This document shows positions 51,784 through 63,690 of a stretch of DNA of 64,000 nt, piece by piece; position 1 is the first letter of the stretch, and each line of letters begins with the position of its first letter. Position numbers and translations under genes: made by a program. Origin of the DNA: Hoeflea sp. (GTDB lineage: Bacteria > Pseudomonadota > Alphaproteobacteria > Rhizobiales > Rhizobiaceae); the NCBI GenBank assembly GCA_019084245.1, contig JAHRFE010000015.1:1-64000 (forward strand), in the 5' to 3' direction. The notes beneath the pieces were generated by a model. It searched no databases, was not told the origin of the DNA, and saw nothing but the letters and a program-made list of their open reading frames with translations.

Positions 51784-51898
51784 ATCGTCACACAACTGCG
51801 CCGGACACGGACGCTGAATTCGCCGGGATCGCGGCGGCTGGGCGGTTTGGAAATTGATGGTTGCGTCAAGCGCCCGAGGCTCGCCCGGGCGCTTTTTT
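51784..51898 (+). ncRNA. Candidate ~115-nt small RNA
   Basis: Bounded by a promoter (CTTGAC / TAAGGT) and a terminator (AGCGCCCG / CGGGCGCT with six T at 51893-51898). It has no coding frame of merit and lies between two protein transcription units. I cannot name the family. Confidence 0.45.
51869..51898 (+). terminator. Rho-independent terminator ahead of the GTA cluster
   Basis: AGCGCCCG / CGGGCGCT stem with a T-run. Lies 33 bp before the first GTA gene and would also block transcripts entering from upstream. Confidence 0.85.
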
Positions 51899-51930
51899 GT
51901 GGGCTGAGTTCAGGATTTCGCGAGGACTTG

Positions 51931-52581
51931 ATGACCGGAACCATTGGGTTTGGCGGGCGGTTGCGGCTGTCCGGCGCTGAGGCGGAGTGCGAGGCCGCGC
52001 TGATCGACCTTGTGGTCGAGATGGTGCTGGCGCTCGAGCCGCTGGAGCACAAGCAGCACGGGGCCGCGGATGGGCCCGATGCGGCGCCGGCCGGGCGCGG
52101 GATCGGACAGGCGGGACCGCTCGCGCCTGTGCCCGAAAGCCCGACGCTTGTGGCCGAGAGCACCCAGCGGATGCTGGCGCAGATGCGCGCCGTGCTCGAC
52201 CGCGAGGCGGCACGGCTTGGCGCCGACGGCAGCGAGGGCAAGGCCGCGGTCGACCAGGTCTCGCTGATTGCCCGCACGCTCGAGAAGATCGACCAGATGG
52301 AGCGGCTGATCGCCGAGGACCAGGCCCGCGCCACCGCCCGCACGCTCTCTGCCGACGAGCGCGAGCAATTGAGGCAGACCGTGCGGCAGCTCATTCTCGC
52401 CGCCGCCGAGCGGCTGGCGGCGGAGCGGCTGGGGCAGGGTGTGGCCGAGGGGGATGGTGGTAGCGGGGGTGCAACGCAGGTCTCCGAGGTGGCGGCAAAA
52501 TCTGCCTCTGCGGCACATGGGCATGAGCCCCCTGACCCGGCGGACGCCGGGTCGATGGATCCCGGCTCAAGGCCGGGATGA
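51931..52581 (+). CDS. GTA gp1-like small-terminase protein with REP-derived C-terminus
   Basis: 216 residues, helical, with a long coiled-coil-like stretch (TLVAESTQRMLAQMRAVLDR; KIDQMERLIAEDQARATAR). Position directly before the terminase large subunit indicates the GTA small-subunit-like protein, though identity is by context. The last ~14 codons (DPADAGSMDPGSRPG) are read from a REP sequence (GATCCCGGCTCAAGGCCGGG), so the natural C-terminus was probably replaced by repeat insertion. Confidence 0.6.
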   Translation: MTGTIGFGGRLRLSGAEAECEAALIDLVVEMVLALEPLEHKQHGAADGPDAAPAGRGIGQAGPLAPVPESPTLVAESTQRMLAQMRAVLDREAARLGADGSEGKAAVDQVSLIARTLEKIDQMERLIAEDQARATARTLSADEREQLRQTVRQLILAAAERLAAERLGQGVAEGDGGSGGATQVSEVAAKSASAAHGHEPPDPADAGSMDPGSRPG

Positions 52582-52803
52582 CGGGGTGGAGGGGCCGGGA
52601 TGACGGGGTGGGGAGGACCGGGGTGACGGGGTGAAAAGCCAGAGTTCTGAAAACGCATAATCTCTCCGCCGGCCACGAGCCGGGATCCAGCGGCGAGCGT
52701 CGGCAAGCCGAGGATTTTTTCTTAACGTGGAGTCGCGGGACGGGTCTTTCACCGCGCGGACGCGCGGTGGCTGAACCCCGGATCAAGTCCGGGGTGACGG
52801 AGG
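52545..52803. repeat. REP/REPIN cluster inside the GTA operon
   Basis: REP halves at 52556-52585 (GATCCCGGCTCAAGGCCGGG then ATGACGGGG) and two partial copies (GGGATGACGGGGTGG; CCGGGGTGACGGGGTG) are followed by a complete unit at ~52660-52803 with central CACCGCGCGGACGCGCGGTG. The elements separate the small and large terminase genes. Confidence 0.82.
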
Positions 52804-52886: not shown

Positions 52887-54533
52887 ATGATTGTCCGGTC
52901 GATGTCGGTGGCGCTGAGCTGCGGGGTGTGGATACGGCCCAGGCCCTGCAGGGCACGGTGGGTTCATGCGCTGATGGCGGCTCAGTTGCGGCGCCGGCCC
53001 CGGGCGGTGGGCGAGCTGCAGGCTTGTGAGACTTGCGACGCGCGCCAGGCCAGCTACGCTGGCGAAGAGACCGTGGCACACGAAAAATTTGATGCGGCGC
53101 GGATGCGGGAGCGGATCGGGGCTTCCGGGACGAGTGAGCTGACCGGTGCGCGCGGGGTGCGGATCGTGGCCGGGGCGGCGGAACTGACCGGGCTGGGGCT
53201 GACGGGTGCGCTGTGGCTCAATGGCGCGTTGGATACCGGCGGCGAATTGAGTGTCGCGGATCTGGTGGCGGCGCATATCCTGCGGTTCGATGACCAGGCG
53301 CTGATGGCGCAGGCGAGCGACTGGCGGCTCTTGGCGCGGCCGGAACAATTGCCGCCCGAGGGCGATTGGCGCACCTGGCTGTTGATGGGCGGGCGCGGCT
53401 CGGGCAAGACCCGCGCAGGCGCCGAGTGGGTGCACGCTCTCGCCACGGGCGAGATCGAAGGTCTTGGCAAGGATGGCCGCATCGCGCTGGTGGCCGAAAC
53501 TTTTGGCGATGCCCGCGAGGTGATGATTGACGGGGTATCGGGGATCATGGCTGTGGCGCGTGACCGGCGGCCCGCCTTCGAGGCGACGCGGCGCAGGCTG
53601 GTGTGGCCCTCGGGCGCGGTGGCGCAGATGTTTTCCTCGGAAGATCCCGAAAGCCTGCGCGGGCCGCAATTCGATCTTGCCTGGTGCGACGAACTGGGCA
53701 AATGGCGCCATGCGCGCGAGACCTGGGACATGCTGCAATTTGCACTCAGGCTCGGGACCGCGCCGCGGCAGCTGGTGACGACGACGCCGCTCGCCACGCC
53801 GCTGATGCTGGCGCTGGTGAAGGACAAGGCCACGCGGGTGACGCGGATCAGGACCCAAGACAATGCGGCCCATCTGGCGGCCGGGTTTCTCGACGCGATC
53901 CGGGTGCGCTATGGCGGCACGCGGCTGGGGCGGCAGGAGCTCGACGGCGAACTGATCGCCGACCGCGAGGACGGGCTGTGGCGGCGCGAGCAGATCGAGG
54001 CGCTGACGGTGCGCGCCCACGGACTGCTCTCGCGAATCGTGGTGGCGGTGGATCCGCCGGCTGCGGGGGACGCCAAATATTCCTGCTGCGGCATTGTTGC
54101 TGCCGGGCTCGATCCGGACGGCCGCGCGGTGGTGCTGGCTGACGGCTCGGTCGAGGGCGCGAGCCCGACGCACTGGGCGCAGGCCGTGGTGCGGCTCTAC
54201 CGACGCTTTGACGCCGATTGCGTGGTGGCCGAGATCAACCAGGGTGGCGACATGGTGACGAGCGTGTTGCGCACTGTCGAGCCGTCGCTGCCGGTGCGGC
54301 AAGTGCGAGCGACGCGCGGCAAATGGCTGCGCGCCGAACCGGTGGCGGCGCTCTATGAGCAGGGAAGGGTGGTCCATGCCGGCCATTTCGGCGCGCTCGA
54401 GGACCAGATGTGCGATTTCGGCCCGGACGGGCTCTCCTCGGGCCGCTCGCCCGACCGGCTCGACGCGCTGGTCTGGGCGCTGACCGAATTGTTGCTCAAC
54501 CGGCGGGGCGAACCGCAGGTGCGGCATTTGTGA
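52887..54533 (+). CDS. GTA/phage terminase large subunit (gp2)
   Basis: 548 residues as read from the ATG with GGAGGA six bases before it. From ~residue 120 it is a TerL: Walker A in LLMGGRGSGKTRAGAEW, Walker B in AWCDELGKW, and the RNase-H-like nuclease with aspartates in VAVDPPAAGD, AEINQGGD and SPDRLDALVWAL. TerL packages DNA into heads. Typical GTA TerL is ~430 residues; the first ~120 residues here are unlike the family and include a cysteine pair (ETCDARQASY). A start at the TTG at 53247 would give a normal length. Confidence 0.85.
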   Translation: MIVRSMSVALSCGVWIRPRPCRARWVHALMAAQLRRRPRAVGELQACETCDARQASYAGEETVAHEKFDAARMRERIGASGTSELTGARGVRIVAGAAELTGLGLTGALWLNGALDTGGELSVADLVAAHILRFDDQALMAQASDWRLLARPEQLPPEGDWRTWLLMGGRGSGKTRAGAEWVHALATGEIEGLGKDGRIALVAETFGDAREVMIDGVSGIMAVARDRRPAFEATRRRLVWPSGAVAQMFSSEDPESLRGPQFDLAWCDELGKWRHARETWDMLQFALRLGTAPRQLVTTTPLATPLMLALVKDKATRVTRIRTQDNAAHLAAGFLDAIRVRYGGTRLGRQELDGELIADREDGLWRREQIEALTVRAHGLLSRIVVAVDPPAAGDAKYSCCGIVAAGLDPDGRAVVLADGSVEGASPTHWAQAVVRLYRRFDADCVVAEINQGGDMVTSVLRTVEPSLPVRQVRATRGKWLRAEPVAALYEQGRVVHAGHFGALEDQMCDFGPDGLSSGRSPDRLDALVWALTELLLNRRGEPQVRHL

Positions 54534-54613
54534 ACGGGGGTCGTTTAGGCGGTTGCGAATCCTGGGCGAAGGGTGGATCAGGGGCGGGCATTCAAGACGG
54601 AAAGGAACTGCCG

Positions 54614-54919
54614 ATGATCCGCCATATCGTGTTTTTCAGCGTCAAGGATCAGGCCGATCGCGACCGGGTCGAACAGGGCCTCAAGCTGCTGGCCGCGACG
54701 CCGCACGCACGCAATTTCGAGATCGGTCGCAACCTCAATCATGACGCGATCTCTGAACCGGTGGATTTCGTGGTGTATGGTGAATTCGAGGATGAAGCGG
54801 CACTCGCCGCCTACAAGGCCGATCCGCTCTACCAGCGTTCGATCGACATTGTGCGGCCACTGAGGGAGCTCAGGATCGCCGCGGATTTCGTGAGCGCGGT
54901 ACCGGCGGCTCGCGACTGA
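54614..54919 (+). CDS. Dabb-family stress-response A/B-barrel protein
   Basis: 101 residues with the Dabb fold: MIRHIVFFSVKD, an acidic middle and PVDFVVYGEFEDEAALAAYK, YQRSIDIVRPL. Dimeric barrel proteins of this kind serve as small-molecule enzymes or stress proteins; no catalytic residue can be assigned. It has its own ribosome site (AAAGGA) and terminator, and is not a known GTA structural gene. It lies between terminase and portal. Confidence 0.85.
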   Translation: MIRHIVFFSVKDQADRDRVEQGLKLLAATPHARNFEIGRNLNHDAISEPVDFVVYGEFEDEAALAAYKADPLYQRSIDIVRPLRELRIAADFVSAVPAARD

Positions 54920-54995: not shown

Positions 54996-55022
54996 ATTTC
55001 CGGCTTTTGAAAGGGTGTGACC

Positions 55023-56201
55023 ATGGCATTCGGATTGAGGCTTCCCTGGACCCGCGCCGCCGCGTCAAAGCCGCCCGCAGCCAAGAGCTGGCTGCCGGGC
55101 GCGATCGCGGCGTTTGCCGAGGGCGACGGCGCGCGCTGGAGCGGACGCAGCTATGCGGGCCTTGCGCGCGAGGGTTTCATGCGCAATCCGGTGGCGCACC
55201 GGGCGACAAGGATGATCGCCGAAGCGGCCGCCTCGGTGCCCTGGCTGGTGTTTGACGGGGGCCGCGAGCAGGAGCGCCATGCGGTGCTCGACCTGCTTCA
55301 TCGCCCTGACCCGAACGGCGCGGGCAACGGCTTCTTCGAGACGCTCTACGGCCATCTGGTGCTCTCGGGCAATGCCTGGGTCAACCCGGTCGGCGCGGGC
55401 GGCCGGATCGCCGGATTGCAGCTCCTGAGGCCCGACCGGATGCGGGTGATCGAAGGACCGGACGGCTGGCCCATGGCCTATGAGCACCAGGCGGGCGGGC
55501 GGCGGCAGCGCTTTGCGGCCCAGCCCGAGGAAGGGCCGGGGCTGCTGCATCTCAAGCTGTTTCATCCGCTCGACGATCATCTCGGCTTTGCGCCACTTGA
55601 GGCTGCGCTGATGGCGCTCGACCTGCACAATGCGGCGATGAGCTGGAACAAGGCGCTGCTCGACAATTCCGCGCGGCCGTCGGGCGCACTGGTCTACCAG
55701 CCCAAGGACGGCGGCAACCTGACGCCGGAGCAATATGAGCGGCTGAAGGCCGAGCTCGAGGATGGCTACCAGGGCGCGCGCCGGGCCGGACGGCCGATGC
55801 TGCTCGAAGGCGGGCTCGACTGGAAGGCGATGGGACTGACGCCGCGCGACATGGATTTCATCGAGGCGCGCAACGGGGCGGCGCGCGACATTGCGCTGGC
55901 GCTCGGCGTGCCGCCGATGCTCCTGGGCATCCCCGGCGACCTGACCTACGCCAATTACCAGGAGGCCAATCGCGCCTTCTGCCGCCTGACCGTGCTGCCG
56001 CTGGTGGGCCGCACGGCGCAGGCGCTGACGGCCTGGCTGCAGCCGGTCTACGGCGCGGGGCTCAAGATCGACTACGACGCCGACCGGCTTCCGGGGCTGT
56101 CGGCCGAACGCGATGCGCTGTGGGCGCGCGTCGGTGCCGCGGATTTCCTGAGTGACGCGGAAAAGCGCGAAGCCGTGGGATATCAAAGTGTTGCGGGTTG
56201 A
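55023..56201 (+). CDS. GTA portal protein (gp3, HK97 family)
   Basis: 392 residues. HK97-type portal signatures run through the sequence: NPVAHRATRMIAEAAASVPW, HRPDPNGAGNGFFETLYGHL, GNAWVNPVG, HPLDDHLGFAPLEAALMALD, DFIEARNGAARDIALALGVP and YANYQEANRAFCRLTVLPL. The portal ring sits at one head vertex and passes DNA. Length is normal and no frameshift is seen. The ATG at 55023 follows AAAGGG, whereas the in-frame GTG at 55017 lies nearer that site. Confidence 0.92.
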   Translation: MAFGLRLPWTRAAASKPPAAKSWLPGAIAAFAEGDGARWSGRSYAGLAREGFMRNPVAHRATRMIAEAAASVPWLVFDGGREQERHAVLDLLHRPDPNGAGNGFFETLYGHLVLSGNAWVNPVGAGGRIAGLQLLRPDRMRVIEGPDGWPMAYEHQAGGRRQRFAAQPEEGPGLLHLKLFHPLDDHLGFAPLEAALMALDLHNAAMSWNKALLDNSARPSGALVYQPKDGGNLTPEQYERLKAELEDGYQGARRAGRPMLLEGGLDWKAMGLTPRDMDFIEARNGAARDIALALGVPPMLLGIPGDLTYANYQEANRAFCRLTVLPLVGRTAQALTAWLQPVYGAGLKIDYDADRLPGLSAERDALWARVGAADFLSDAEKREAVGYQSVAG

Positions 56202-56826: not shown

Positions 56827-58647
56827 ATGACACCTGACTGGAGCGCATCCAGACGGCAGCACAAGCGTGTCGATCTGGCTTTGGAAGATGTGAGCGGCGA
56901 CGGCAGTTTTTCGGGCTATGCCAGCCTGTTCGGCACGGTGGATCTCGGCCGCGACGTGATCGAGCCCGGGGCCTTTGCCGCCTCGCTCAAGCGCCGGGGC
57001 GTGGGCGATGTGCGCATGCTCTACCAGCACGATCCGGACCAGCCGATCGGCCGCTGGCTGTCGATCCGCGAGGATGCCCATGGCCTGCATGTCGAGGGCA
57101 AGCTGGCGCTCGGCGTGGCGCGCGCCCGGGAGGTGCACGAACTGATGAAATCGGGCGCGCTCGACGGGCTGTCGATCGGCTTCCAGACAATTCGCGCCCG
57201 GGCCGAGGCCAAGAGCGGCGTGCGACGGATTTTAAGCGCCGATCTCTGGGAGATCTCGGTGGTGACGTTTCCGATGCAGCCGGGCGCGCGGGTGACCGCG
57301 GTCAAGGCGGCGTCAGGTGCGAGCCTCACCGTGCGCGATCTCGAACGACGGCTCACGCGGGATGCGGGGCTGACCAGACGCCAGGCGCGCGGGCTGATTG
57401 CCCGCGGCCACGGCGGGCTTTCGGACAGGCAGGACGCTGGCCCGGAGGATCTCGAACGACTGGAACGCAAGCTCAGAACCCTGACCGGGGCGCTGGCTGG
57501 TTCCACCCCATCCACTGACTTGACCCTGTTGAAAGGACGACCCATGACCACGCAGTTGAACACCCGAACCGGGCGCGCGCCGGAAACCAAGAGTGTCGAC
57601 GCCGACATTTCCGCCGCCTTCGAGGACTTCATGTCCGCCTTCGAGCACTACAAGCAGACAAATGAGCAGCGCCTCGACGAGATCGAGCGCCGCGGCGGCG
57701 CCGATGTGCTGATCGAGGAAAAGATGGCCCGGATCGACCAGGCGCTCGACGAGCAGAAGCGCACGATGGATGCGCTCATCGTCAAGCGCGCCCGCCCGGA
57801 CCTGGGGCGCGGCGGCGGCTCTGCGCCGAGCGCGGTGCGCCAGGCCTTCGATGCCTATGTGCGCCGCGGCGACGAGGCGGGCCTGCGCCAGGGAGACCTG
57901 AAAGCCATGTCCGTGGGCAGCGATCCCGATGGCGGCTACCTTGTGCCTGACGAGCTCGACACCGAGATCGGCCGGCGGCTTTCGGAGCTCTCGCCGATCC
58001 GCTCGATTGCGACGGTGCGGCAGGTCTCGGGCGCGGTGCTGAAGAAGCCTTTCGCGCTGAACGGCATGGCCACGGGCTGGGTGGGTGAGACCGCTGCGCG
58101 GCCGCAGACGGCCACGCCGCAGCTGACCGAGCTGCAGTTTCCCACCATGGAACTCTACGCCATGCCGGCCGCCACCGCCTCGCTGATCGAGGACGGGGCG
58201 CTCGACATCGAGGGCTGGATCGCCGCCGAAGTGGAGGCCGCGTTTGCCGAGCAGGAGGGCGCGGCCTACCGGCACCAGGGTGCGCGCAAGGGCGTCGGCT
58301 GCGACTGCCTGGGGCTGGTGCGCGGCGTCTGGGCCGAGATCATCGGCCAGGAGGCGGAACAGCCCGGCGCCTATGCGCCCGACTGGGCCGAGCGCGGGCG
58401 CACCGACCGGCTGATCGAGGCGGCGCAGCGGCACTGCGGTGCGGCCATTCCACTGTCCGAGGCGATGGCCGGAGACATCCTGCTGTTTCGCTGGCGCGAC
58501 GGGGTTTCGGCCAAGCATGCGGGCATTCTCTCGGACCCGGATCACTTCATCCACGCCTATGAGGCGGCGGGCGTGATTGAAAGCGCGCTGGTGCCTGCCT
58601 GGCTGCGGCGGATCGCGGCGGTGCACCGGTTTCCGTCCCAACGCTGA
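56827..58647 (+). CDS. In-frame chimera: GTA prohead protease (gp4) - truncated major capsid (gp5) - NlpC/P60 tail peptidase (gp14)
   Basis: 606 residues in one open frame. Residues 1-239 are an HK97 prohead protease (FSGYASLFGTVDLGRD; catalytic histidine in MLYQHDPDQPIGRW and serine in LDGLSIGF). From M240 (MTTQLNTRTGRAPETKS) comes the major capsid: coiled-coil delta region, then SVGSDPDGGYLVPDELDTEI, SIATVRQVSG, to FAEQEGAA. At ~479 it switches to YRHQGARKGVGCDCLGLVRG, the gp14 peptidase with catalytic cysteine and a later histidine (AKHAGILSD). Capsid residues normally following are absent, so no functional head can be expected. The capsid start retains its own ribosome site (GAAAGGACG). 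Confidence 0.85.
   Translation: MTPDWSASRRQHKRVDLALEDVSGDGSFSGYASLFGTVDLGRDVIEPGAFAASLKRRGVGDVRMLYQHDPDQPIGRWLSIREDAHGLHVEGKLALGVARAREVHELMKSGALDGLSIGFQTIRARAEAKSGVRRILSADLWEISVVTFPMQPGARVTAVKAASGASLTVRDLERRLTRDAGLTRRQARGLIARGHGGLSDRQDAGPEDLERLERKLRTLTGALAGSTPSTDLTLLKGRPMTTQLNTRTGRAPETKSVDADISAAFEDFMSAFEHYKQTNEQRLDEIERRGGADVLIEEKMARIDQALDEQKRTMDALIVKRARPDLGRGGGSAPSAVRQAFDAYVRRGDEAGLRQGDLKAMSVGSDPDGGYLVPDELDTEIGRRLSELSPIRSIATVRQVSGAVLKKPFALNGMATGWVGETAARPQTATPQLTELQFPTMELYAMPAATASLIEDGALDIEGWIAAEVEAAFAEQEGAAYRHQGARKGVGCDCLGLVRGVWAEIIGQEAEQPGAYAPDWAERGRTDRLIEAAQRHCGAAIPLSEAMAGDILLFRWRDGVSAKHAGILSDPDHFIHAYEAAGVIESALVPAWLRRIAAVHRFPSQR
58252..58270 (+). other. Deletion junction: major capsid gp5 to gp14
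   Basis: The capsid codons end at EQEGAA and gp14 codons begin at YRHQGARK, within GAGGGCGCGGCCTACC. The joined frames are in register. In intact GTA clusters these positions are separated by about nine to ten genes (gp6-gp13). Confidence 0.8.
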
Positions 58648-58686: not shown

Positions 58687-61600
58687 ATGGCGACAATTCT
58701 CTTGCAGGTGGCGGGCGCTGCGCTTGGCAGCGTCTTTGGGCCGGTTGGCACGGCGATCGGCTCGGCCGTGGGCGCGACGCTCGGCGGCATGATCGACACC
58801 AGCCTGATCAACTCCACCCGCACCATTGCCGGCCGTGGCCTGAGCGGCGCGCGGATCCCGTCGGCGGACGAGGGATCTGCCATCCTGAGGGTGCATGGTT
58901 CGATGCGGATCGCCGGCGCGCTGATCTGGGCGACGCGGTTCGAGGAGACGGTGACGCGGGAGCGCCAGGGCGGCAAGGGCGGCGGCCCCAAGGTCGAGAG
59001 TTTTCACTATCACGCCAATTTCGCGCTGGGGCTGTGCGAAGGCCCGATCGCCTCGATCCGCCGGGTCTGGGCCGACGGGCGGGAGCTGGATCTCGAAAGC
59101 CTCGACATGCGGATTTACCGCGGCACGGCGTCGCAATTGCCCGATCCGCTGATCGAGGCCAGGCAGGGTGCGGGCCGGGTTCCGGCCTGGCGCGGGCTTG
59201 CCTATGTGGTGTTCGAGCGGCTGCCGCTCGATGCTTTCGGCAACCGCATCCCGGTGCTGCAGTTCGAGGTGGTGCGGCCGGTGGGCCAGCTTGAAACCGC
59301 CATCAAGGCGGTGGCGGTGATCCCCGGCGCCACCGAGCATGGTTACGCCACCACGCCGGTGCGTGAAACGCTTGGCCCGGGTGCTGCGCGCGTGCTCAAC
59401 CGCAACATGCGGCAGGCATCGACCGACTGGGCCCAGTCGATCGACGAGTTGCAGGCGCTGTGCCCCAACCTGACATCAGTGGCGCTGGTCTCGTCCTGGT
59501 TCGGCGACGATCTGCGCGCGAGCCATTGCCGGTTCCGGCCCGGCGTCGAGGTGAGCGCGCGGTCGGGTGAAACAAGGCCGTGGAAGGTGGGCGGGCTCAG
59601 CCGCGCAACCGCGCATCTGATCAGCACCAAGGATGGCGGCCCGGCCTATGGCGGCACGCCCGATGACCGGGCGGTGATCGAGGCGATTGGCGATCTCAAG
59701 GCGCGCGGGCTCAAGGTGGTGCTCTATCCCTTCGTGCTGATGGATGTGCCGGACGGCAATGGGTTGCCGGACCCGAATGGCGCTGCCGAACAGCCTGCCT
59801 ATCCGTGGCGCGGGAGGATCACCGCGAGCCCGGCGCCGGGGCTGACTGGCACCCCGGACGGGACGGCGGCGATGCGAACCGAGATCGAGGCGATGAGCGG
59901 CGGGATGGACGTGGCGGATTTCACCGTCGTGGGAGACAGCGTCTCCTGGACCGGCGGCGACGAGGGCTATCGCCGCTTCGTGCTGCATCATGCGGCGCTG
60001 GCGCTGGCCGCGGGCGGGGTCGACGGCTTCATCATCGGTTCGGAGATGATCGGGTTGACCCGGCTGCGCGATGAGATCGGCGCGTTTCCCTTCGTCGAGG
60101 AACTGATCGCGCTGGCGGAAGACGTCAAGGCGATGCTGGGACCGGCCACCACCGTGACCTATGCCGCCGACTGGACCGAATATGCGGGCTACCGGCCGCA
60201 GGACGGTTCGGGCGACGTCTATTTCAATCTCGATGCCTTGTGGGCGCATCCGGCGATCGGCGCTGTCGGCATCGACAATTACATGCCGCTGAGCGACTGG
60301 CGCGATGGCGACCGGACAGCAGGCAATCCCGATGGGGCGCGTTTTGCCAATGATTCCGCAGCCATGGGCAGGGCGATTGCCGGCGGCGAGGGGTACGAGT
60401 GGTATTATGCCGATGAGGCTGGGCGGAATGCCCGCGACCGGCTGTCGATCAGCGACGGGCTTGCGGGCAAGGACTGGGTCTACCGGGTCAAGGATCTGAG
60501 CGGCTGGTGGCAGAACCAGCATTTCGACCGGACCGGGGGCAGCGAGACAGCTGTTGCGAGCCCCTGGGTTCCGGGGTCAAAGCCGTTCTGGTTCACTGAA
60601 CTCGGCTGCCCGGCAGTCGACAAAGGCGCGGGCCAGCCCAACCTGTTTCCCGATCCGAAATCGTCGGAAGGCGCGCTGCCCTGGTTCTCGACCGGCGCGC
60701 GCGACGATCTGGCCCAGCGCGCCTTTCTCGAGGCCCATCTCGCCCACTGGTCCGGCCCGGCCAATGCCGAGGGCATGGTTGAGACGGACCATATCCATCT
60801 CTGGACCTGGGACGCGCGGCCCTATCCGGCGTTTCCGCTCTCCTCCACCGTGTGGTCGGACGGCCCGAATTGGCGAACCGGGCACTGGCTCAACGGGCGA
60901 CTCGGGACCATGGCGCTCAAGGATCTGATCGCCGCGGTTCTGATTGAAGCAGGGATGAGCGAGTTTAATGTCGACCGTGTCGACGGCGTGGTCACCGGCC
61001 ATGTGATCGCAAGCCCCGCCTCGGCCCGCGCGGTGCTGGAACCGCTGCTGCAGGCCTTTGCCATCGACGTGCGCGAAGGCCCCGGCGGGCTCGAATTCGC
61101 CTCGCGATTGAAGCTTGGCGCGGCGCCGGTCGAGATCGGCGTGATGGCCGAAGCCCCTGAGGGGCCGCTGTTCGAGGAGATCCGCGGCGAGATCGGCGCA
61201 TTCGCCAATGAGGCGGTGGTGCTGTCCGCCGATCCGCTCAATGATTATGCGCCCGCCTCGGCCCGCTCGCGCCGGCTTGAGGGCGAGCCGGTGCGCCAGC
61301 GGGATCTGCCGCTCAGCCTGGCGCTGGATCCGGGTCTGGCGCGCGTCACCGCCGATCAATGGCTGCACGACCACCGGCTGCAGCGCCGCCAGCTGCGCTT
61401 TGCCATGCCGCCGCAAGCGGCGCAGCTGGAGCCGGGCGATAGTGTCCGCTTTACGCTGCCGGAGGCGCCGCAGGGCCGCTACCGCATCGTCCGTATCGAG
61501 GACGGCGGGATGCGTCGCGTCGAGGCGGTGGCCCATGCGGGGGCGGCGCCGGGCGAGATGGGCGAAACACTTGGCTCCCGCGCCCCGACCGACGCCAACG

Positions 61601-62535
61601 CCTATTTCGCGCCGGAGCTCATGTTTCTCGATCTGCCTGCGCTCTCCGGCACGGATGAGACCGGCTGGGCGAGGGCCGGAGCTCTGGCCCGCCCATGGCG
61701 GCGGATGGTGCTGTCGAGTTCGGTGGAGGAGGAAGGTTTTTCCGCGCGGGCGACGCTCGATGCGCCAGCGAGACTTGGCACGCTGGCGGCGGATCTGCCG
61801 CCGGGGGACGCCGAGGGCCGGTTTGATGCGTTTGCGGCGCTCGAGGTCGATCTCGGCTTCGGCGGGCTGTCGAGCGCCAGCCGGCTGGCGGTCCTGAATG
61901 GCGCCAATGCGGCGGCGGTGCGCTCGCAATCCGGCGTCTGGGAAATTGTTCAGTACGAGACCGCCGAGGAGATCGCGCCCGACCGCTGGCGGCTGACAAA
62001 CCTGCTGCGCGGGCAGGGCGGAACCGACGATGCCATGCGCGCAGGCGCTGTGGCCGGGGCGGCGTTCGTCGTGCTCGACGGGGCTGTCCGGTCGCTGGGG
62101 CTATCGCTTGAGGAAGCAGGTCGCGCGCTCAACTGGATCGCCGAGGCTTCGGGTGGACCCGTGGGCGGCTTCGGGCCGGTTGCCTTTGCCGGTGGCGAGC
62201 GGGCGCTCATGCCGCTGTCGCCGGTGCACCTCCGCGCCAAGCGCGCGCCGGACGGGGTGATGGTCTCCTGGATCCGGCGCGGACGGATGTCCGCAGACAG
62301 CTGGACGCCGGCGGACATCGCCCAGGACGAAGGCTTTGAGCGCTACCGGATCGAGATCCTCGATGGCGAAGCCGTTGTCCGCGCCGCCGAGGTGGAGGGC
62401 TCACCGTGGCTCTATCCGGCGGGGAACGAACTCACCGATTTCGGCGCCGAACAGGCGTCGCTCACCGTGCGCATGACGCAAGCCGGAAAGCGCGTGCCCT
62501 GGGGCGTGGCGCGCACCGCGACGATCGAACTTTGA
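58687..62535 (+). CDS. GTA gp15-like baseplate/host-specificity multidomain protein
   Basis: 1282 residues and apparently intact. N-terminal membrane-like hydrophobic region (~1-45), then the GTA TIM-barrel domain (TVTYAADWTEYAGYRPQDGS; FNLDALWAHP; GIDNYMPLSDWRDGD; WFTELGCPAVDKGAGQPN), and a C-terminal phage-tail/host-contact domain (FGGLSSASRLAVLNGANAAA; RLTNLLRGQGGTDDAM). Its length matches the largest GTA tail protein, placed at the distal tail. It follows the chimera by 39 bp. Without the tail genes it has no tail to attach to. Confidence 0.9.
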   Translation: MATILLQVAGAALGSVFGPVGTAIGSAVGATLGGMIDTSLINSTRTIAGRGLSGARIPSADEGSAILRVHGSMRIAGALIWATRFEETVTRERQGGKGGGPKVESFHYHANFALGLCEGPIASIRRVWADGRELDLESLDMRIYRGTASQLPDPLIEARQGAGRVPAWRGLAYVVFERLPLDAFGNRIPVLQFEVVRPVGQLETAIKAVAVIPGATEHGYATTPVRETLGPGAARVLNRNMRQASTDWAQSIDELQALCPNLTSVALVSSWFGDDLRASHCRFRPGVEVSARSGETRPWKVGGLSRATAHLISTKDGGPAYGGTPDDRAVIEAIGDLKARGLKVVLYPFVLMDVPDGNGLPDPNGAAEQPAYPWRGRITASPAPGLTGTPDGTAAMRTEIEAMSGGMDVADFTVVGDSVSWTGGDEGYRRFVLHHAALALAAGGVDGFIIGSEMIGLTRLRDEIGAFPFVEELIALAEDVKAMLGPATTVTYAADWTEYAGYRPQDGSGDVYFNLDALWAHPAIGAVGIDNYMPLSDWRDGDRTAGNPDGARFANDSAAMGRAIAGGEGYEWYYADEAGRNARDRLSISDGLAGKDWVYRVKDLSGWWQNQHFDRTGGSETAVASPWVPGSKPFWFTELGCPAVDKGAGQPNLFPDPKSSEGALPWFSTGARDDLAQRAFLEAHLAHWSGPANAEGMVETDHIHLWTWDARPYPAFPLSSTVWSDGPNWRTGHWLNGRLGTMALKDLIAAVLIEAGMSEFNVDRVDGVVTGHVIASPASARAVLEPLLQAFAIDVREGPGGLEFASRLKLGAAPVEIGVMAEAPEGPLFEEIRGEIGAFANEAVVLSADPLNDYAPASARSRRLEGEPVRQRDLPLSLALDPGLARVTADQWLHDHRLQRRQLRFAMPPQAAQLEPGDSVRFTLPEAPQGRYRIVRIEDGGMRRVEAVAHAGAAPGEMGETLGSRAPTDANAYFAPELMFLDLPALSGTDETGWARAGALARPWRRMVLSSSVEEEGFSARATLDAPARLGTLAADLPPGDAEGRFDAFAALEVDLGFGGLSSASRLAVLNGANAAAVRSQSGVWEIVQYETAEEIAPDRWRLTNLLRGQGGTDDAMRAGAVAGAAFVVLDGAVRSLGLSLEEAGRALNWIAEASGGPVGGFGPVAFAGGERALMPLSPVHLRAKRAPDGVMVSWIRRGRMSADSWTPADIAQDEGFERYRIEILDGEAVVRAAEVEGSPWLYPAGNELTDFGAEQASLTVRMTQAGKRVPWGVARTATIEL

Positions 62536-62768: not shown

Positions 62769-62808
62769 GGCAGGGTTACTGCACCAGGGCAACTCAACCG
62801 TCTGCTCA

Positions 62809-62839
62809 TTGACAAGTATGTAAATTACGCACATATATC
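62809..62839 (+). promoter_or_regulatory. Toxin-antitoxin promoter with overlapping inverted repeat
   Basis: TTGACA at 62809-62814 and an A/T-rich -10 (CATATA at 62832-62837, spacer 17). TATGT (62817) and ACATA (62831) form an inverted pair across the spacer, the usual antitoxin operator position. Transcription is predicted to start at or just next to the toxin ATG at 62844. Confidence 0.6.
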
Positions 62840-62843
62840 ACGC

Positions 62844-63230
62844 ATGCCCAACACCCTGCACACCGTCACCGAGCTTGGCGCGTTCAACAGAGCGGCGAAG
62901 GCAGCGGGGATGTCAGCACTGGATGTGGAGGACCTGGTGACGTATCTCGCAGAGAACCCAGATGCGGGTGATGAGATACAGGGAACAGGCGGATGCCGTA
63001 AGCTCCGTTTTTCGATCCGAGGCAACACAAAGGGCAAGAGTGGCGGCGTAAGAACCATCACGCTGTTTTCGGGGCCTGATTTGCCGGTTTTCCTGATCAC
63101 GGTGTTTGCAAAGAACCAGAAAGTGACGCTGACAAAGGCCGAACGCAACAGCTTGAAAAAGCTTTCTGACCAGATAGTTCGAGAGTATGCGAGGCGCGTA
63201 TCGCCTCTGGCAGAAGGAGACAGAGAATGA
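62844..63230 (+). CDS. RelE/HigB-type toxin of a type II toxin-antitoxin system
   Basis: 128 residues with the compact RelE/ParE fold (GCRKLRFSIRGNTKGKSGGV; VFLITVFAKNQKVTLTKAER; QIVREYARRV). The basic residues fit a ribosome-dependent mRNA interferase, but I cannot assign the catalytic set reliably. The toxin gene precedes the antitoxin, as in HigBA/NadNS systems, with a four-base overlap. A/T-richer than the GTA genes, suggesting separate acquisition. Confidence 0.82.
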   Translation: MPNTLHTVTELGAFNRAAKAAGMSALDVEDLVTYLAENPDAGDEIQGTGGCRKLRFSIRGNTKGKSGGVRTITLFSGPDLPVFLITVFAKNQKVTLTKAERNSLKKLSDQIVREYARRVSPLAEGDRE

Positions 63231-63556
63231 GCAAAAAGGCATTTGACCAGATAGCGGAGGGGCTGGAGGAGGCCTTGGCCGTGGTGCGCGGCGAAGCAGA
63301 ACCTTTCAAGCTGCATGTGCCTTCCGAGATTGATGTAAAGGCTATCAGGGCGCGTACGGGTCTGTCACAAAAGGACTTCGCCTCAACATTTGCCTTCGGG
63401 TTGGATCAGTTGAAGCAGTGGGAGCAGGGACGCTCACGGCCTGTGCAGGCGATGCGGGCGTACCTGCTTCTGATCAATGCCCACCCCGTAGATATGGTGA
63501 AGGCTCTGAGAGATTTGAAAGAGCATGGGCAGAGTTCCAAGCTTTTGGCTGTTTGA
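63227..63556 (+). CDS. HigA/NadS-like antitoxin
   Basis: 109 residues. A helix-turn-helix (RARTGLSQKDFASTFAFGL; LDQLKQWEQGRSRPVQAMRA) binds DNA, while the N-terminal helix would contact the toxin. Probably represses the operon through the operator around 62817-62835. Translation is coupled to the toxin by ATGA. Confidence 0.88.
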   Translation: MSKKAFDQIAEGLEEALAVVRGEAEPFKLHVPSEIDVKAIRARTGLSQKDFASTFAFGLDQLKQWEQGRSRPVQAMRAYLLLINAHPVDMVKALRDLKEHGQSSKLLAV

Positions 63557-63690
63557 TTGCTCCTGTATTCCGGCCTCTGTATCCGCCCGCGCCCTTGCGC
63601 ACCCGCCCCCGGTTTCCATTCATTTGCGGTTCAGGCAGGATCTTGTATCACTGGCTTCACGATGAAATACGAACCGCTTCAGGGCTGATC

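Follow-up and report, generated by a model that had tools for sequence, protein, structure and literature searches.

The RcGTA-like head-tail gene cluster of a Hoeflea-group alphaproteobacterium (marine) was very probably inactivated, and recently so, by one deletion of about 5.2 kb through illegitimate recombination, leaving behind a hybrid that is translatable but probably useless. The hybrid lies in the window, that is, the whole 64,000-nucleotide stretch of DNA that was analyzed, on the 207-kb contig C28 of an assembly of 4.82 Mb in 46 contigs. Its frame (56827–58647, forward strand) contains no inner stop and translates into 606 residues, in which Pfam matched Peptidase_S78 at residues 25–160, Phage_capsid at 369–480, and NLPC_P60 at 478–588. 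TIGR01543, TIGR01554 (profile positions 3–223 of 385), and TIGR02219 (profile positions 10–134 of 134) concurred with this division, placing the capsid at residues 260–480 and the NlpC/P60 peptidase at 478–603 of the product. An earlier note, made from the letters of this DNA, had described one frame joining the prohead protease, the front of the major capsid protein, and gp14; both its coordinates and the in-frame switch from capsid to gp14 agree with the translation and the family models.

The first part of the frame, an S78 prohead protease (gp4) with a linker (56827–57543, forward strand, residues 1–239), reads into the capsid gene without a stop. The N-terminal part of the major capsid protein (gp5) follows at 57544–58266 on the same strand and comprises the first 241 of about 415 residues. 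Only positions 1–113 of the 280 in the Phage_capsid profile were covered, indicating that the HK97-fold capsid domain is incomplete, ends mid-domain, and lacks more than half of its length. The alignment to RcGTA that the earlier note had proposed holds for this portion, which aligns to the solved RcGTA capsid protein structures 6tba and 6tb9. Because the capsid gene retains its own ATG, preceded by a Shine-Dalgarno-like GAAAGGA, the sequence could also give a 367-residue capsid-gp14 product starting from Met240. The last part (58267–58647, forward strand) encodes 126 of the 147 residues of the NlpC/P60 peptidase gp14, the first 21 being absent when the gp14 of L034, the cluster of the nearest relative, is taken as the length reference. 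Cys494, His564, and His576, which we take to be the catalytic residues of the peptidase, were invariant across the 46 rows of a gp14 alignment (A2).

The RcGTA cluster runs from terminase, portal, protease, and capsid through to gp14 and gp15. With the same-genus clusters as reference, RcGTA-type protease, capsid, portal, gp14 peptidase, and megatron genes were present here in conserved order. The retention of terminase, portal, and gp15, also asserted in the earlier note, was borne out by profile matches, and all three frames are open and on the forward strand. The conserved part of the large terminase (gp2) occupies 53253–54533 within a listed ORF that opens at 52767 (PHROG terminase large subunit), the portal (gp3) occupies 55017–56201 (TIGR01537, 224 bits), and the 1282-residue megatron baseplate protein (gp15) occupies 58687–62535, where the GTA equivalog NF048004 matched over positions 1–1298 of 1299 with 1652 bits against a cut-off of 800. 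Amino acid identity was 84–94% for the terminase in 11 relatives (86% over the part matched in L046) and 87–95% for the portal across 12 relatives; the megatron was matched in 15 of 18 genus genomes. Upstream of the terminase, a 244-residue ORF at the gp1 position (51847–52581, forward strand), presumably the small terminase by its position, was matched by tblastn in 11 of the 13 loci L034–L046 of the genus, the L039 match being short, but had no match among Pfam or PHROG profiles. That the locus is a prophage instead of a GTA, a reading that turns on integrase, lysis, and replication genes, is argued against by the megatron equivalog and by collinearity with 13 genus members.

Two further features were seen within and beside the cluster. 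Between terminase and portal lies a Dabb (stress-responsive A/B barrel) gene (54410–54919), over which DNA alignment was continuous in L034, L035, L043, and L046 and broken in the other relatives reaching that region. At the 3′ end of the cluster, about 840 bases (62770–63608) carry a RelE-type toxin gene (62844–63230) and an antitoxin-like gene (63227–63556) with weak MqsA and HTH matches under their cut-offs; the 12 relatives whose fetched DNA reaches this site have about 15–70 bases there instead.

The missing segment was defined against 13 fetched clusters of the same genus (L034–L046), which is represented in the collection by 17 other genomes. DNA matches to all 13 loci end on the capsid side at 58265–58267 and resume on the gp14 side at 58258–58265, and in the relatives these two join points are 5189–5945 bases apart. 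The flanks of the gap resemble the same-genus clusters, including named copies among L056–L065 that are mostly Hoeflea; against L034, DNA identity is 86% on one flank and 88% on the other. Unlike this cluster, all 13 hold 5.19–5.95 kb at the gap, and none has the hybrid. Across a wider set, capsid and gp14 were both on the fetched stretch in 72 of 83 loci examined, 5113–8047 bases apart. These comparisons show that everything between capsid residue 242 and gp14 residue 21, both included, is missing here, in keeping with the earlier claim that adaptor and tail genes are absent between capsid and gp14. The corresponding stretch of L034 encodes the C-terminal part of the capsid, a head-tail connector (Phage_connect_1), a head completion protein (Phage_HCP), a tail completion protein, a tail tube (Phage_tail_2), further ORFs, a DUF2460 protein, an ORF at the gp13 position, and the first 21 residues of gp14; the labels gp10–gp13 and tape measure are our assignments by position, after the order in RcGTA.

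The lost segment was not found elsewhere in the genome. With the DNA of the L034 segment as query, the whole genome yielded a single match under the E = 0.001 threshold; it covers about 200 bases of contig C7 at 67% and falls in a separate capsid-like gene. The best match to the gp13 protein had E = 0.53, hence no convincing counterpart, and the full L034 capsid protein matched the truncated copy in the cluster at 91% and four others at 38–46%. A complete set of capsid, connector, tail-tube, and tape-measure genes is absent from the cluster, and searches of the genome with segment DNA, gp13, and cluster-type capsid did not find one.

The continuity between protease and capsid is older than the deletion. 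The two lie in one open frame in 11 of 15 comparable genus members, this genome included (10 of the 14 others), while the remaining genus loci have one stop between them (three loci) or a different frame (one locus). None of 69 further loci from other named records shows the open frame: 47 have the capsid in another frame, 19 have one stop, and 3 have two. One of these 69, L097, is labelled Hoeflea, with identities of only 72, 63, and 60% in the three parts. Exact GAAAGGA precedes the capsid ATG in 12 of 14 aligned clusters, this one included, and L044 and L045 carry close variants. On these sequences the protease-capsid continuity is widespread in the genus and may be a harmless read-through of a short spacer; the deletion would have added the gp14 end only. 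The earlier note had taken the whole three-part fusion as the product of a single in-frame deletion of several kilobases. A loss of about 5.2 kb between capsid and gp14 fits the comparison with the 13 relatives; the joining of the protease by the same event is not supported, because 10 of the 14 other genus loci have protease and capsid in one open frame and the capsid start is kept. Separately, the record L083, titled Bacillus subtilis strain SK6B4, was found to contain a GTA cluster whose similarity is close to that of the Pseudochrobactrum clusters, and the record is probably mislabelled.

In DNA alignments the deletion junction maps to 58258–58267 (forward strand), where an exact match of 3 bases, CCT (58265–58267), is shared and no filler bases occur. 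As for the short homology that the earlier note had suggested looking for, ten bases at the join agree at 8 positions when L035 is taken as the ancestral state and at 6 when the nearest relative L034 is used. Under random placement, at least 8 of 10 matching bases are expected with a probability of about 0.002, although the 8/10 match was noticed post hoc, and an exact match of at least 3 bases with a probability of about 0.085, that is, commonly by chance. The pattern fits illegitimate recombination but proves little. The frame runs on across the join because the shared CCT has the same codon phase in both genes; an in-frame join is a 1-in-3 chance for which no selection needs to be invoked.

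The age of the event was approached through branch dN/dS, using simple Nei-Gojobori counts with the two near relatives L034 and L035 over gap-free columns only; for lack of a terminase or portal match, L036 was not included in the tree. The codons used were 242 of 426 for terminase, 393 of 394 for portal, 175 of 223 for protease, 235 of 239 for the capsid part, 122 of 125 for the gp14 part, and 1019 of 1282 for megatron. Over these 2186 codons of the six remaining genes, dN/dS was 0.127 on the branch of this genome, compared with 0.117 for L034 and 0.165 for L035. Single-gene estimates have wide bootstrap limits: terminase (0.148 versus 0.051 in L034 and 0.136 in L035) and protease (0.147 versus 0.041 and 0.087) are somewhat higher here, but their limits overlap those of the relatives. 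The values for megatron were 0.174 here versus 0.164 and 0.163, for portal 0.059 versus 0.065 and 0.208, for the capsid part 0.065 versus 0.099 and 0.107, and for the gp14 part 0.120 versus 0.145 and 0.252. A long decay of the remaining genes was judged unlikely, given that overall dN/dS is not raised, though single genes vary. The upper 97.5% bound on the unconstrained share of the branch was 0.028, so the deletion would be younger than about 3% of the branch if the remaining genes became neutral when it occurred. Missing relaxed selection would be equally expected if the remaining genes still had some use. These sequences thus suggest either a very young deletion or remaining genes that still matter, of which a very young deletion is the simpler reading.

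Whether the hybrid could fold was addressed with structure models. Chimera residues 442–606 were modelled with a mean pLDDT of 83, the peptidase blocks ranging from 64 to 97. The gp14 domain has lost its native first helix together with its first 21 residues, and in the model a capsid helix (model residues 20–35, ten-residue blocks at pLDDT 74–78) takes its place. The best PDB matches were NlpC/P60 peptidases, for example MepS and Spr, and the matches shown were largely of that type. The sequences aligned for this model are intact gp14 proteins, an input that favours the gp14 fold, and because of that alignment the model speaks for a possibility and not for function: the peptidase part of the hybrid may be able to fold. 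A model of all 606 residues had a pLDDT of 65, with low confidence over capsid residues 390–459 that is also weakened by misplacement in its alignment (A1); it is unusable for the peptidase because the gp14 rows of A1 were placed against protease and capsid.

A junction-spanning protein probe matched in 293 of 394 family genomes. Among the matches listed, only this genome spans the junction at high identity, and several others cover the greater part of the probe at about 50% identity. Two of the latter, G378 and G147, considered as other capsid-gp14 fusions, proved to be normal capsid genes that lack the peptidase motif GCDC. No match to the junction pattern occurred in a contig collection from which the record of the window itself was possibly excluded. 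In the literature, no publication was found on a protease-capsid fusion; searches on GTA in Hoeflea and on GTA fusion, in-frame deletion, pseudogene, loss, or orphan genes returned nothing on this event, as judged by titles and the starts of abstracts, and in the portion of PMC7947584 covered, words of loss yield one unrelated passage.

Among 15 genus genomes with a completeness of 90% or more and a contamination of 5% or less, the main cluster was broken, without a capsid gene, or not found in 3: this genome, G009, and G002. In G002, listed as 100% complete, no match was found to the chimera, megatron, or capsid protein, and its main cluster seems from these searches to be lost. In G009, the cluster has both protease and connector, but the capsid gene between them is replaced by about 380 bases unmatched to L034 (L148:6855–7234), and a full-length capsid gene, 53% identical to the L034 capsid, lies on another contig (L150:5991–7238), near a DUF2793 gene and an RmlD-type gene, with a methyltransferase gene in between; it is possible that the capsid was replaced by a relocated copy. 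This genome likewise has an orphan capsid fragment at the start of contig C14 (L151:107–853), which matches the G009 orphan at 61% identity as far as residue 195 of the latter and breaks off near a 130-base repeat common to the start of contig C19. The next identified gene beside this fragment is an FAA-hydrolase gene. Three of 15 genomes without an intact main cluster suggests repeated loss, and, on sequence comparison, GTA capsid genes may have been lost and relocated repeatedly in the genus. The genome also has three further pairs of S78 protease and HK97 capsid genes (C7:9205–10854, C7:62868–64527, and C21:207445–209119), probably prophages.

Other explanations were weighed against these data. 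An artefact, with an intact cluster in the sequenced cells and a junction arising from the assembler or from a deletion variant in culture, is improbable. The junction is known from one assembly of 46 contigs only, and an event without a trace of sequence decay would look like an artefact or a culture variant too; however, the junction is interior to its 207-kb contig, the 5.2-kb segment was found on no other contig, and only 3 exact bases are common at the join in the two nearest relatives, probably too few for an assembly-graph collapse, which was therefore judged unlikely. We hold it for extremely improbable that the GTA is still functional with its lost parts supplied from elsewhere in the genome, such as an orphan capsid copy or prophage tail genes. 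The HK97 capsid genes on C7 and C21 and the C14 fragment (C14:137–652 in the match to the G009 orphan) would speak for it, but that fragment matches only to residue 195 and breaks off near the contig-end repeat, the other full-length capsids are only 36–39% identical, and neither gp13 nor the remainder of the GTA segment gave a convincing counterpart.

Very unlikely, too, is that selection maintains both the chimera and the genes that remain in some other role, for example as a cytoplasmic or released NlpC/P60 peptidase with a capsid-derived part. Consistent with this, the remaining genes are open and jointly under purifying selection, the conserved Cys and both His are retained, and the modelled capsid helix replaces the lost gp14 helix in a domain whose PDB matches are largely of NlpC/P60 type. 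Yet a young deletion accounts for the missing decay, the model was given intact gp14 sequences and so is biased towards that fold, the capsid part ends mid-domain, portal and terminase would have no obvious use, and among the matches listed from the 394 family genomes the join occurs at high identity in none besides this genome. We likewise see only a slim chance that the hybrid works as a capsid-derived module before a still folded NlpC/P60 peptidase and was retained in a cell-wall or anti-particle role once the GTA had been given up in a genus with repeated loss or relocation of capsid genes. Under the preferred reading of a recent inactivating deletion, one illegitimate recombination event would have removed about 5.2 kb and joined the capsid front in frame to the gp14 end at a very short match, the frame being preserved by chance. 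The cell would no longer be able to make GTA particles, because the C-terminal part of the capsid and the connector, tail-tube, tape-measure, and distal tail genes are lost. The 606-residue product, or the 367-residue one from the capsid start, may be translated but would have no selected role, and the event would be young, perhaps confined to one strain.

In RcGTA, deletion of the gp14 peptidase gene alone left no native particles, with empty tailless heads seen, as described in the passages of PMC7296036 consulted. The present cluster is like that of RcGTA in having the same gene kinds at both ends, a capsid that aligns to the RcGTA structures, and a gp14 that is a TIGR02219 peptidase, and unlike it in that the capsid is truncated, everything from the C-terminal part of the capsid to the gp14 start is gone, and the protease and capsid lie in a single open frame. 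The part of PMC9765227 covered speaks of incomplete RcGTA-like clusters as abundant, and this cluster resembles those alphaproteobacterial ones in that the head-tail set is partly missing and the rest recognizable; unlike them, as far as that part describes them, it has a junction-resolved in-frame deletion, datable against close relatives, and one hybrid frame. According to the same part of PMC9765227, analogues that go unrecognised may stand in for GTA genes that look absent, a caution that weighs less here because close relatives show the missing part. The deletion itself is of an ordinary kind, incomplete GTA clusters being already known, and the leftover hybrid is neat. The general view is that selection maintains GTAs over long periods, and their loss is usually inferred from absence. 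A young, junction-resolved deletion in a cluster whose rest is fully constrained, with intact relatives at hand, would permit a comparison of GTA-plus with GTA-minus within one genus.
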